Positions 16,991-54,384 of a DNA stretch of 64,000 nucleotides are shown piece by piece. Numbering within the stretch: position 1 is the stretch's first letter; each line of letters opens with the position of its first letter. The DNA is from Viridibacillus arenosi (GTDB lineage: Bacteria > Bacillota > Bacilli > Bacillales_A > Planococcaceae). Both the position numbers and the translations under genes were made by a program. Under the pieces are notes generated by a model, which saw only the letters and a list, made by a program, of their open reading frames with translations, did no database searches and was not told where the DNA came from. The stretch is taken from contig NZ_MSPW01000004.1 in NCBI RefSeq assembly GCF_001955655.1, positions 248,001-312,000 of the forward strand, read 5' to 3'.

Positions 16991-17186
16991 TCGCTATTGG
17001 GAAGGAATCAGTGCTAGTCGAGAAGAGATAATCGCTACTGGGAAGGGAATTATCGATACTCAGAGCGAGATTAGCGCTACTCGAGAAGAAAGTATCACTA
17101 CTCAGGGGAGAAGTATCACTACTGGAGAATAGATTATCACTACTCAAGGAGACCATAGCTACTCAAAAAAACTAATCTTACTCAAC
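16991..17186. repeat. Degenerate 21-bp tandem repeat (about 10 units)
   Basis: Units centre on CTACTC/CTACTG, with anchors at 16994, 17014, 17035, 17056, 17077, 17098, 17119, 17140, 17159 and 17178. Six consecutive steps are exactly 21 bp; the ends drift to 19-20. It fills the gap between the phosphodiesterase and the terminator of the converging DUF2804 gene. In one plus-strand frame each unit gives a leucine-rich heptad (SLLxxxL), but no start codon with a ribosome site was found. Confidence 0.85.
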
Positions 17187-28509: not shown

Positions 28510-28545
28510 TTGAAAAAACTCCGCAAAAGCGGAGTTTTAGTTTTT
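28510..28545 (-). terminator. Rho-independent terminator, likely of the ABC-F transcript
   Basis: Perfect 10-bp GC-rich stem (28515-28524 with 28529-28538) followed by T6 on the minus strand. It is the first terminator after the ABC-F stop at 29187, so the repeat array between would be in that 3'-UTR. Confidence 0.8.
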
Positions 28546-28560
28546 AGAGAAATAATTAAC

Positions 28561-29190
28561 TTTAGATGCTATTAGCTTGCGGATATTCGTTCTCCAACTT
28601 CAGTCGGGCGCTCAAAGTCAAATAGCGACTTTGGCTTCCGCCTTCCAACGACCTCGCAGCTGAACGAGCGCCTTTAGCATTTAGATAGATATCTAGCTTC
28701 AGGCGCTAGACTCTCAGAGCGTTTCGGTCTCTCGGCACAAGACAAAAAGCGTCTTGTGTTCGAGCCCTCCAACGCCAATCGAGTCTAAACGAGCGCCATC
28801 AGCATTTAGATAGATATCCAGCTTCAGGCGCTAGCGGCTCGGGTCGTTTCAGTCGGGCACTCAAAGTCAAAGAGCGACTTTGGCTTCCGCCTTCCAACAA
28901 CCTCGCAGCTGAATGAGCGCCTTTAGCATTTAGATAGATATCCAGCTTCAGGCGTTAGCGGCTCGGGTCGTTTCAGTCGGGCACTCAAAGTCAAAGAGCG
29001 ACTTTGGCTTCCGTCTTCCAACGACCTCGCAGCTGAACGAGCACCATCAGCATTTAGATAGATATCCAGCTTCAGGGGCCAACCCCTCGAGGTCACTTCC
29101 ACTTTCTCGGTCGAAAATTGAAAAGATATTTTCGATTCGAAAGTTCCAGTGCTTGTCGGGGCTGAGCGGGCCGCTTCAGCATTTAGTTAT
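28561..29190 (-). repeat. Tandem array of ~124-bp palindromic repeats (five units)
   Basis: The motif GCATTTAGATAGATATCCAG recurs at 28678, 28802, 28926 and 29050 (exactly 124-bp steps) and in diverged form at 29179. Units 1, 3 and 4 share a CAAAGTC/GACTTTG tip, unit 2 has a CACAAGAC/GTCTTGTG tip (28736-28743 with 28751-28758), and unit 5 has a TCGAAAAT/ATTTTCGA tip and resembles the 46-kb pair. Each unit can fold into one long hairpin; in unit 2 GGCGCT, AGACTC and AGCGTT pair with AACGCC (two G-T or mismatched bases), GAGTCT and AGCGCC. The array lies between the ABC-F stop codon and its terminator. Confidence 0.9.
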
Positions 29191-30749
29191 TGATGTCCAG
29201 TTGAGAACCATTCTGCTACGTCCCATACTTTTGTAACTAGACCTTCGTAAAATTCAGGTTCATGGCTGACTAGGATGATTGTGCCTTTGTATTCTCTCAT
29301 AGCTCGTTTTAATTCTTCTTTTGCATGAACGTCTAAGTGGTTTGTCGGTTCATCGAATAGCATCCAGTTACTTTCATCCATCATTAATTTACAAATACGA
29401 ACTTTTGCTTGTTCTCCACCGCTAAGTTGGCTTAATGGACGTGAGATGTGCTCGTTTTTCAAACCAGTAGATGCTAGAATGGCACGTACTTGGCTTTGCT
29501 CCAAACTTGGATATGCATTCCAAACGTCTTCAATTGGTGTGATGTTACCGGCTTTAACTTCTTGTTCAAAATAAGAAGGGAAGAGGAAGTCACCACGCGT
29601 TACTTTACCACCAAGAGGCTGAACTTTGCCAAGCATTGTTTTAAGTAGTGTTGATTTACCAACACCATTCATACCTACAAGGGCAATTTTTTCACCACGT
29701 TCAATTTCGAAAGTAAGTGGTGGTAATAGTGGTTTGTCCTTGTCGTAGCCAATTAACAAATTTTCAGCTTCTACGACGTAACGACCCGAGCTACGTGATT
29801 CTTTAAAGTTAAACTTAGGTTTTGCTGCTGTTTCTGGACGGTCAATACGTTCCATGCGATCCAATTGTTTTTGGCGCGACTTAGCTCGTCCAGTAGTAGA
29901 ATATCGTGCTTTATTTTTTGCGATAAAGCCTTCTTGTTTTTTAATAAACTCTTGTTGCTTTTCATAAGCATCGATATGTTGACGCTTGTTAATTTCAGCT
30001 AGTTCTAAAAACTTTTCGTAAGTGGCAGTGTAGCGAGTTAGTTTTGAAAATTCTAATTGGAAAATAACATCGACAACGCCATTCATAAATTCTGTATCAT
30101 GTGAAATTAAGAAGAATGCATGTGGGTAACCTTTTAAATAATTTGAAAGCCAAGTTACATGCTCTTCATCCAAGTAGTTGGTAGGCTCATCAAGTAATAA
30201 AACTTTTGGTTTTTCTAATAGAAGCTTCGCAAGTAATAATTTTGTACGTTGACCACCAGAAAGTGCTGTTACATCACGCTCAAGCCCGATTGCATCTAAA
30301 CCAAGTCCACGTGCAACTTCCTCAATTTTCATATCTAATGTATAAAAATCTCCAGCATCTAAAGCATCTTGAATTTCAGCCATCTGTTCTAATAATTCTT
30401 CTAGCTCTTCAGGTGTTGCTTCAGCCATTTTGCCTGTAATTTCGTTCATCTCAGATTCTTTTTGGTAAAGCGGTAAAAAGGCATCGCGTAAAGTTTCACG
30501 CATCGTTTTACCTGGTGTTAACACAGTATGCTGATCCAAGTAACCGTAATGTGTGTTCGGTAACCATTCAACTTTGCCTTGGTCATGGATTAATTGTCCC
30601 GTGATGATACTCATTAATGTGGACTTTCCTACACCATTAGCCCCAACAAGACCAACATGTTCGCCTTCTACGATACGGAACGATACATCTTTAAAAAGTG
30701 TACGGTCGCCGAATGTATGGCCAAGATTTTCAACTGTTAAGATACTCAT
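29187..30749 (-). CDS. ABC-F family ATPase (full length)
   Basis: 520 residues with two nucleotide-binding domains and no membrane part. Domain 1 has GANGVGKST, LSGGQRTK and LLLDEPTNYLDEE; domain 2 has GMNGVGKST, LSGGEQAKV and LFDEPTNHLD. The interdomain linker (about 235-310) is long and charged. Both catalytic Glu residues are present. It resembles the YbiT/YkpA-like branch acting on ribosomes; the exact role is not certain. The frame opens at 30764, but GGAGGA is 7 nt before ATG 30749. The last codons (STGHQ-stop) align with the edge of the adjacent repeat. Confidence 0.92.
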   Translation of the reverse strand: MSILTVENLGHTFGDRTLFKDVSFRIVEGEHVGLVGANGVGKSTLMSIITGQLIHDQGKVEWLPNTHYGYLDQHTVLTPGKTMRETLRDAFLPLYQKESEMNEITGKMAEATPEELEELLEQMAEIQDALDAGDFYTLDMKIEEVARGLGLDAIGLERDVTALSGGQRTKLLLAKLLLEKPKVLLLDEPTNYLDEEHVTWLSNYLKGYPHAFFLISHDTEFMNGVVDVIFQLEFSKLTRYTATYEKFLELAEINKRQHIDAYEKQQEFIKKQEGFIAKNKARYSTTGRAKSRQKQLDRMERIDRPETAAKPKFNFKESRSSGRYVVEAENLLIGYDKDKPLLPPLTFEIERGEKIALVGMNGVGKSTLLKTMLGKVQPLGGKVTRGDFLFPSYFEQEVKAGNITPIEDVWNAYPSLEQSQVRAILASTGLKNEHISRPLSQLSGGEQAKVRICKLMMDESNWMLFDEPTNHLDVHAKEELKRAMREYKGTIILVSHEPEFYEGLVTKVWDVAEWFSTGHQ

Positions 30750-30767
30750 TATTTTGTCCTCCATATA

Positions 30768-30925
30768 AAATACGATAGTTGCACTTTATAAAAAAATATT
30801 CATTTCCAAACGCATGATTGCAAACGAAGCAATTCGTATTTTTTGTTATAGTTAGTAGTTCGATTTTAGGTCAACATGACGTTGATCATGCAACCGTTGC
30901 GACAGGACGTCGCAAACTTAGGTTG
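30768..30925 (-). promoter_or_regulatory. Promoter and inverted repeats upstream of the ABC-F gene
   Basis: On the minus strand TTGACC (30869-30874), 18 bp, TATAAC (30845-30850) form a likely promoter. TCAAC-atgac-GTTGA (30871-30885) overlaps the -35, and a nested hairpin (CAACC 30891-30895 with GGTTG 30921-30925; TTGCGAC 30897-30903 with GTCGCAA 30909-30915) lies just upstream. In the predicted leader, AAATACGA (30768-30775) can pair with TCGTATTT (30834-30841). Regulatory roles are inferred. Confidence 0.55.
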
Positions 30926-30947
30926 CTTTCCTTTAAAAGGCGGTTTT

Positions 30948-31075
30948 GCATTTAGATGAGATATCCAGCTTCAGGCGCTAGCTGCTTGGGTCGTTTCAGT
31001 CGGGCGCTCAAAGTCAAAGAGCGACTTTGGCTTCCGTCTTCCAACGACCTCGCAGCTGAACGAGCGCCATCAGCT
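30948..31075 (-). repeat. Single palindromic repeat unit of the 124-bp family
   Basis: Begins with the shared GCATTTAGAT/GATATCCAGCTTC edge. Arms pair as GGCGCT/AGCGCC (30974-30979, 31063-31068), AGCTGC/GCAGCT (30980-30985, 31052-31057) and GGGTCGTT/AACGACC (30988-30995, 31043-31049), with a CAAAGTC/GACTTTG tip (31009-31015, 31023-31029). It follows the 62-residue gene in the same relative orientation as the other copies. Confidence 0.88.
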
Positions 31076-31082
31076 TTTACAA

Positions 31083-31121
31083 TAAAAAAAACCCGCAGTT
31101 ATGACAACGCTGCGAGTTGTT
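31083..31121 (-). terminator. Terminator overlapping the 3' end of the 62-residue gene
   Basis: On the minus strand AACTCGCAG pairs with CTGCGGGTT and is followed by T8; the first arm lies inside the coding region before the stop at 31099. Confidence 0.75.
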
Positions 31122-31287
31122 TGTTCAATTCGGCTAGTTGTTGCTCCATGTCTTTTAGGCGCTGTTCGGCCTGTTCGACAGCTGATCCGTTACCTATTGA
31201 ATCGAGTTTTTCGATGTCACCTTGATGACGGATGTAGTCGCTTTTTAGTTCTAATATTTGGTATTCTATTTCGGCTTTAGTAGGCAT
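31099..31287 (-). CDS. Small coiled-coil protein, 62 residues, unknown
   Basis: Starts MPTKAEIEYQILELKSDYIR and ends QRLKDMEQQLAELNKQLAALS; heptad-like Leu/Ile spacing and high charge suggest a helical hairpin or coiled coil. AAAGGAG is 8 nt before the ATG, and a terminator overlaps the stop. Ribosome site, codon use and terminator support a real gene. I do not recognise the family. Confidence 0.78.
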   Translation of the reverse strand: MPTKAEIEYQILELKSDYIRHQGDIEKLDSIGNGSAVEQAEQRLKDMEQQLAELNKQLAALS

Positions 31288-43275: not shown

Positions 43276-43308
43276 TTAGTTCATAACTTACAAACGAATA
43301 TTGAATTT

Positions 43309-43463
43309 TATCTAGAGAGACCGAGGGATAGGCCCTATGACGTCCGGCAACCCCCTGCCAAAGGGAAGGTGCCAATTCCTACAGAATGAGTACATTCTGG
43401 AAGATAAATCGCCAATTTACACTTACGATGCTTCTTTCAGATAACCGAAAGAAGCGTTTTTTA
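43309..43463 (+). promoter_or_regulatory. SAM-I (S-box) riboswitch with terminator
   Basis: The S-box core is clear: TATCTAGAGAGACCGAGGGA at 43309, GGCCCTATGA, CCGGCAACC, AAGGTGCCAATTCC and the closing AGATAA near 43401. A terminator follows: GCTTCTTTC (43430-43438) pairs with GAAAGAAGC (43447-43455), then T6. With SAM bound, transcription of metNPQ should stop; when SAM is low, the operon is made. Confidence 0.96.
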
Positions 43464-45218: not shown

Positions 45219-46037
45219 ATGAAAAAGTTTTTACTAGCAGCGTTATTATTCGTATTAGCAACAGTTTTAGTTGCATGTGGTAACAAAGATGAAAGCAAAC
45301 CAAAAGATTCAAAAGACATTAAAATTGGCGCAACTGCAGGGCCGTATAGTGACATGTTAAATAAAGCAATCATCCCGCAATTAGAGAAAAAAGGGTATAA
45401 AGTAAAAACAGTTGAATTCAGTGACTACGTACAACCAAACAAAGCATTAGATTCTGGTGATATTGATGCAAACCTTTTCCAACATTCAATTTATCTTGAA
45501 AACTTTAATGAACAAAATAAAATGAAATTAACTGGTCTAATTAACGTACCAACTGCACCAATGGGCTTCTTTGCAAAAGATTTTAAATCAATTGATGGTA
45601 TTAAAGACGGCGCAAAAGTAGCAATTGCTAATGATCCATCAAATGCGGCACGTACATTATTAGCGTTACAAGAACAAGGTCTTATCAAAATTGACCCGAA
45701 CATCGAAGAACTAAAAGCATCTGAAAAAGACGTTGTTGAAAATCCTAAAAACTTAGTGTTCCAACCAATAGAAGCGGCGGGGCTGCCTCGTGCAATCGAT
45801 AGCGCTGACCTTGTTGGTGTCCCAGGAAACTTTGCACTTGCGGCGGGACTGAATCTACAAGATGCACTCTTCTTAGAAAACATGCCTGATAAATTCCGTA
45901 ATGTTATTGCGGTTAAGGAAGAAAACAAAGATTCACAACTAGCAAAAGATATACTAGAAATCGTTAAATCGGAAGAATTTGAAAAAATCATCGATGAAGA
46001 ATTTAAAGGTTTCGGCAAACCTGACTGGATGAAGTAA
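45219..46037 (+). CDS. metQ: Methionine-binding lipoprotein MetQ
   Basis: 272 residues. A lipoprotein signal ends at the lipobox LVACG (Cys about residue 20); the NlpA/MetQ fold follows (IGATAGPYSDML, LFQHSIYLENFN). It captures methionine outside the membrane. The frame opens at TTG 45213, but GGGGAG is 8 nt before ATG 45219. Its stop codon is also the first bases of the palindromic repeat that follows. Confidence 0.96.
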   Translation: MKKFLLAALLFVLATVLVACGNKDESKPKDSKDIKIGATAGPYSDMLNKAIIPQLEKKGYKVKTVEFSDYVQPNKALDSGDIDANLFQHSIYLENFNEQNKMKLTGLINVPTAPMGFFAKDFKSIDGIKDGAKVAIANDPSNAARTLLALQEQGLIKIDPNIEELKASEKDVVENPKNLVFQPIEAAGLPRAIDSADLVGVPGNFALAAGLNLQDALFLENMPDKFRNVIAVKEENKDSQLAKDILEIVKSEEFEKIIDEEFKGFGKPDWMK

Positions 46038-46295
46038 ATGTTGAAGCGGTCCGCCTAGACTCGACAAGCGCTGGAACCTTCGAATTGAAAACGTACTTTC
46101 AGTTTTCAACCGAGAAGGTGGAAGTGACCTCGAGAGTCTGACCGCTGAAGCTGGATATCTCGAGTAAATGCTGAAGCGGTCCGCCTAGACTCGACAAGCG
46201 CTGGAACCTTCGAATTGAAAACGTACTTTCAGTTTTCAACCGAGAAGGTGGAAGTGATCTCGAGAGTCTGACTGCTGAAGCTGGATATCTCGAGT
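46036..46295 (+). repeat. Two tandem 130-bp palindromic repeats after metQ
   Basis: Units 46036-46165 and 46166-46295 differ at about three positions. Each folds as a long hairpin: AGCGGTC (46045-46051) with GACCGCT (46140-46146), AGACTCGA (46057-46064) with TCGAGAGTCT (46130-46139), TTGAAAAC (46085-46092) with GTTTTCAA (46102-46109). In the second unit GACCGCT is GACTGCT, turning a G-C into a G-T pair. The edge GAAGCTGGATATC is shared with the arrays at 28 and 31 kb. Confidence 0.93.
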
Positions 46296-46318
46296 AAATG
46301 TTTCGAGCATTTTTCTAA

Positions 46319-46362
46319 AGAGACTACTGCACACTTTTAAGTGTGCAGTAGTCTCTTTTTAT
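46319..46362 (+). terminator. Terminator of metNPQ, downstream of the repeats
   Basis: 18-bp stem (AGAGACTACTGCACACTT and its complement) then T5. It is the first terminator after metQ, so both repeats should be in the mRNA. Confidence 0.9.
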
Positions 46363-54220: not shown

Positions 54221-54231
54221 TATTCATTTCC

Positions 54232-54267
54232 CCCTAGTTTTTTTTCGTGGGATGGTTACGAACCACG
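54232..54267 (-). promoter_or_regulatory. preQ1-I riboswitch controlling queT translation
   Basis: On the minus strand CGTGG and CCACG form P1, enclosing TTCGTAACCATC, followed by an A8 tail and CTAGG, which matches the class I preQ1 aptamer base for base in layout. The tail runs into GGGGGA, the queT ribosome site, so ligand binding should hide it. About 36 nt. Confidence 0.9.
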
Positions 54268-54384
54268 TTATAAAAAGTCTACACTACACCCTATCATAGC
54301 GAATTTAAATTGTACATGTATAAATTAACCTTTCACTACAACTTTTATATTCAAATTTAAGCTAAGTAAATCAATAAAAAAAAC

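Follow-up and report, generated by a model that had tools for sequence, protein, structure and literature searches.

Two long imperfect hairpins stand directly behind metQ in a 64,000-nt stretch of Viridibacillus arenosi DNA (hereafter the window), and a longer array of such hairpins lies behind an ABC-F gene on the opposite strand. What kind of element are these repeats, are they carried in the 3'-UTRs of the genes that precede them, and what might they do there?

Repeat arrays behind metQ and the ABC-F gene

The first-pass annotation had placed two 130-bp units between the metQ stop codon and the first terminator, and a five-unit array in the equivalent position behind the ABC-F gene. Both placements were borne out. 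The metQ units, each 130 nt long and arranged head to tail, are followed by a strong intrinsic terminator with none in between, and the ABC-F array, whose fifth unit is truncated, is followed by a terminator hairpin (Table 1). The predicted 3'-UTRs of 260 and 630 nt stand as repeat-made tails, but the distances from stop to terminator end are slightly longer (~325 and ~670 nt), because non-repeat sequence and the terminator are counted in. Compared with shuffles, the predicted folds reach -96 kcal/mol (z -4.3) for the metQ unit pair and -269 kcal/mol (z -8.4) for the ABC-F array.

Table 1. Positions of the repeat units, their host genes and other features of the window
Feature	Position	Strand	Remark
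Imperfect 21-nt tandem repeat	17013-17152		6.7 copies
Terminator hairpin	28515-28538	-	3' of ABC-F array
ABC-F array unit 5	28595-28683	-	truncated; array end ~28595
ABC-F array unit 4	28684-28808	-	
ABC-F array unit 3	28809-28932	-	
ABC-F array unit 2	28933-29056	-	GGTGCTC subtype
ABC-F array unit 1	29057-29185	-	metQ-like subtype; begins 1 nt behind stop codon
ABC-F gene	29187-30764	-	ribosome-protection-like ABC-F family; stop at 29189-29187
Bacillaceae-1 RNA (RF01690)	30871-30937	-	module accompanying arrays; downstream of single unit 31079-30949
Single further unit	30949-31079	-	begins just behind terminator of SE1832-family gene; not a pre-terminator 3'-UTR copy
Small SE1832-family gene	31099-31287	-	
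SAM riboswitch	43305-43410	+	ahead of metNIQ operon
metQ	45219-46037	+	last gene of metN-metI-metQ; stop TAA 46035-46037 is first three bases of unit 1
Repeat unit 1 behind metQ	46035-46164	+	TAAATG plus imperfect hairpin
Repeat unit 2 behind metQ	46165-46294	+	98% identical to unit 1
Weak terminator-like hairpin	46289-46307	+	6 pairs with T-tract; overlaps unit 2 end, so also 3' of repeat hairpins
TAAATG after last metQ unit	46295-46300	+	possible target-site copy or remnant of further unit
Strong intrinsic terminator, met operon	46317-46358	+	downstream of both units
preQ1 riboswitch	54228-54272	-	

The same arrangement occurs in related genomes. Array followed by terminator was seen directly at metQ in all three Viridibacillus species, with two, three and five units; the nearest named metQ loci are those of V. 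arvi (97%) and V. soli (95%). Orthologous metQ and ABC-F arrays in the two other species likewise abut the stop, with a terminator after the array and none between. No promoter-like site was found on the sense strand when both window arrays were scanned. At these two genes, the sequence arrangement supports a 3'-UTR location of the arrays well.

A structured repeat family and its Bacillaceae-1 module

The window hairpins are members of one large repeat family of the Bacilli. Units across the family are ~118-131 nt long, start with TWAATG(C) and form natural arrays of 1 to 8. With a first covariance model built from 21 copies, we identified 34 copies in this 4.43-Mb genome, 58 in V. soli and 41 in V. 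arvi (E ≤ 0.01); within the same taxonomic family, 23 of 37 genomes gave matches. A broader model matched at least 70 of 398 sampled Bacilli genomes in at least 38 of 146 genera, both lower bounds, with eight candidates scored per genome; named carriers beyond Viridibacillus include Lederbergia species and Bacillus sp. 03113. The unit matched no Rfam family, with nothing credible at lenient thresholds, and gave no match in plasmid and phage collections. A literature search by unit sequence returned no description, and one by subject returned only REP, bcr, BOX and stem-loop surveys. The family is apparently undescribed so far. We considered and rejected an identity as intrinsic terminators: units end in GGATATCT, with no GC-rich stem running straight into a U-tract, and separate terminators lie downstream.

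Several lines of evidence indicate that the fold of the unit is real. Among 80 distinct copies, 96.6% of pair cells hold standard pairs, and two-sided changes occur at 29 of the 30 pairs. The alignment, which was fitted to the model and is biased towards structure, reaches a covariation score of 0.829; shuffled versions reach 0.228 and slid ones at most 0.157. An independent MAFFT alignment of 21 copies recovered the same helices, with compensation at 21 of 30 pairs. Non-standard pair states are mostly G·U (60, versus 21 A·C). Mutation alone would make the two equal, so the excess identifies the host-gene sense strand as the one that folds. In seven same-site unit pairs, where numbers are small, paired bases change at roughly half the rate of unpaired ones (5% versus 9%), and a G-U pair is gained or lost in 8 of 15 one-sided changes.

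The ends of the unit pair, with conserved purine mismatches. Internal loops also retain such mismatches (GGA opposite GAA, UGAA opposite UGAA) in both window subtypes and most copies, although a plain DNA inverted repeat would not need them. These loops could form a platform for an RNA-binding protein that acts on decay or localisation. We consider this highly improbable, as no candidate protein emerged and purine mismatches also simply stabilise stems.

Some arrays carry a second element. The window's single further unit is accompanied by a Bacillaceae-1 RNA, and of the 11 RF01690 copies above threshold in this genome, 10 lie next to, or overlap with, a same-strand unit, as judged by comparison of coordinates. 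Modules were present in 13 of 20 loci examined, sometimes inserted in the 5' arm of a unit (several cases, e.g. L124 4095-4160); besides the window copy, they lie inside or beside arrays at L022, L023, L096, L099, L101, L104 and others. RF01690, filed in Rfam as a stand-alone sRNA, is a module of repeat arrays in Viridibacillus. The Rfam entry covers the two-hairpin RUCCU module only: the accompanying module matches it at the gathering score and the main unit does not. Matches barely above threshold to tsr31 (RF02580, an S. aureus sRNA family) were also detected near an array at L023 4545-4613 and L104 1892-1960.

The embedding of a filed sRNA suggests that arrays and modules could be processed from mRNA tails, or transcribed from promoters of their own, into sRNAs acting in trans, and the starts of some arrays do lie past a terminator or close to divergent promoters. 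The lack of promoter-like sites in the two window arrays weighs against such a source, and variable unit number and sequence seem ill suited to a single trans target. We regard this role as improbable.

Placement at stop codons and turnover of the arrays

The main new result concerns the address of the family. We counted open frames of at least 80 codons with a stop near the array start, a measure independent of gene calls. In Viridibacillus, 34 of 69 arrays begin -6 to +4 nt from a sense stop, compared with 2 of 69 in a mirrored-end control, and 22 of 60 arrays in other Bacilli are so placed (mirror control 1). By species the Viridibacillus counts are 7/20, 16/30 and 10/18 (leaving out the pnp locus, which was fetched twice); because the species share sites, a pooled P overstates the case and these values are fairer. 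The stop is TAA in 33 of the 34 cases and is itself shared with the array in 17. The stop-abutting arrays belong to 19 distinct host genes, including metQ, ABC-F, pnp, RNase J, argS, tyrS, purH, mgsA and a carboxylase subunit (named by eye from sequence).

We rejected a plain preference for TWAAT as the cause of this placement. Only 7.3% of the TWAAT sites in non-coding DNA are adjacent to a stop, and no Viridibacillus array starts 7-59 nt behind a stop despite plentiful TWAA there (263 near, 357 far; Fisher P 7e-13).

For 23 of 30 stop-abutting arrays, a predicted terminator falls within the following 250 nt. The count is weak alone, because terminators of convergent regions work both ways, and the opposite strand of the same DNA gave 21 of 30. 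Taken together, stop-codon position, sense-strand folding and the absence of an intervening terminator make it likely that these arrays are transcribed as 3'-UTR.

Other arrays lie elsewhere. Some sit just behind a terminator U-tract (the single window unit, 31079-30949, and L029, L067, L102, L019, L076 and L092), and some are antisense to both neighbours (e.g. L027, L070, L093; L025, L081, L100); placement of both kinds is consistent between species. The 3'-UTR is therefore the commonest address of the family and not its sole one: placement there is a real tendency and not universal. The first-pass proposal that the repeats reside in 3'-UTRs accordingly stands for metQ and ABC-F and is only half right as a general rule.

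Further observations concern these sites. The post-terminator arrays starting at window position 31079, L029 3008, L067 4031 and L102 2957 share their location across the three Viridibacillus species. Antisense arrays at L027, L070 and L093, at L025, L081 and L100, and at L063 and L090 begin ~86-139 nt upstream of a start codon. In L068 and L094, an array begins directly beside a Spo0A-box-like sequence. The sequence TATGACTCAAGC and similar ones, which are repeat-like, occur downstream of several V. soli arrays (L077, L089, L068, L079).

Comparison between species points to mobility. The pnp stop and terminator of V. soli are separated by four units, which the other two species lack. Behind this array the sequence picks up again with TAAAT, the pattern that entry at the stop codon with duplication of a few bases would leave. 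At rnj, V. soli has an array and the other two species only a short tail and terminator. The metQ product of outgroups ends in ...WMKNR or ...WMQNR before the stop, and that of the three Viridibacillus species in ...WMK followed by the TAA(ATG) of the repeat; the repeat therefore took over the metQ stop, leaving a protein two residues shorter. Units plus a Bacillaceae-1 module follow purH in this genome, with the module alone in V. arvi, and a gene ending ...KHGNIPL has the element or its remnant in all three species. Of 41 arrays, 26 have a further TWAA after their last unit, compared with 6 of 41 in the control.

At least ten sites are occupied in all three species. The nearest unit in another species is at the same site for 32 of 107 units (6.8 expected) and at another site for the remaining 75. 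These comparisons indicate that sites persist and that the units in them are exchanged or re-amplified. No parent transposon, which a MITE reading would call for, was found. We also rejected a RAYT as mobiliser: the only Y1-type (RAYT) transposase match in this genome is a single partial one to PF01797, a broken fragment that covers 44 of 121 positions and is interrupted by a stop.

How are these properties best explained? We give an even chance to a mobile, tandem-growing RNA repeat that lands on stop codons and has a REP-like effect on the host mRNA. On this reading, structured repeats of ~120-130 nt reach fresh sites and expand there into tandem arrays. They favour stop codons, where the leading TAA(ATG) becomes, or directly follows, the stop of the sense gene. 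With no terminator in between, the array would form the first part of the 3'-UTR on the transcript. A stable stem so close to the stop could keep 3' exonucleases away from the coding sequence and may delay the ribosome during termination. By analogy, mRNA decay or termination could plausibly be affected. Counting against this explanation, half of the arrays lie away from stops, some of them post-terminator and some antisense near promoters, and sense orientation at stops could simply follow from a target that contains TAA.

Alternatively, the unit may be a selfish structured repeat whose hairpin is needed for spread via an ssDNA or RNA intermediate, with stops serving as TWAAT target and harmless address and no benefit to the host. 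We give this rather less than an even chance. Units nearest to units at other sites (75/107) are what a spreading selfish repeat would show, and copy numbers that vary by species, the empty sites at pnp and rnj, the TWAA behind last units and the half of copies outside 3'-UTRs all fit. However, a search for an autonomous partner among Y1-type transposases yielded only the broken fragment in this genome, and sites persist in three species. The common TWAA sites 7-59 nt behind stops go unused, and the slower change of paired bases and the one-sided changes involving G-U in same-site pairs, small as their numbers are, also argue against a purely selfish repeat. We favour the REP-like effect over it, giving that effect roughly even odds.

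A bolder version would make the repeat a portable, Bacilli-wide 3'-UTR cassette that picks the stops of actively used genes, brings an in-frame stop and tunes the mRNA by hairpin number, perhaps choosing stops via a process coupled to translation termination or via an RNA intermediate. We think this unlikely.

The family matters in several respects. Long 3'-UTRs in Bacilli are poorly understood, and a stop-codon repeat in many genera bears on them. With 1 to 8 units each, the arrays would serve as a ready-made allelic series relating 3' structure to mRNA lifetime and termination. They also provide a context for RF01690, an orphan RNA family, and their placement at stop codons poses the question of how a repeat chooses its site.

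Comparison with known repeats

BOX elements are modular interspersed repeats with a variable number of an inner module, and they are not known for stop-codon placement. Those of pneumococcus (PMC3049150) differ from the present units in sequence and host. Bhal-1 of B. halodurans is, like the present unit, an intergenic stem-loop repeat of a Bacilli genome but, compared by description only, is 74 bp long and present in 36 copies (PMC2267715).

The bcr1-bcr18 repeats of the Bacillus cereus group are 100-400-bp intergenic structured repeats of Bacilli, located partly in UTRs, and have a short A/T motif tied to mobility (PMC6542083). B. cereus transcripts bearing bcr3 have longer half-lives, with housekeeping genes as a confounder that the authors themselves point out (PMC3446304). 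Compared by description, bcr repeats are reported from the B. cereus group only and have a TTTAT motif, whereas the present repeat occurs in at least 38 Bacilli genera, including Viridibacillus and Lederbergia, and has a stop-codon address.

Among the closest known parallels are the REP/BIME elements of E. coli and relatives, imperfect palindromes that occur at high copy number in 3'-UTRs and frequently lie no more than 15 nt from a stop (PMC12306157). REPs that close to a stop stall ribosomes in E. coli, and REPs protect mRNA (PMC12306157). We rejected classification of the unit as a REP on length, tag and transposase: REPs are 20-40 nt long, carry a GTAG or CGTC tag and are linked to RAYT transposases, whereas the Viridibacillus units are ~120-130 nt long, start with TWAATG, form head-to-tail arrays and coexist with only a Y1 transposase fragment in the genome. 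At most, the repeat would work like a REP, with which it shares a 3'-UTR position near the stop (34/69 and 22/60 arrays, and 0 at 7-59 nt in Viridibacillus).
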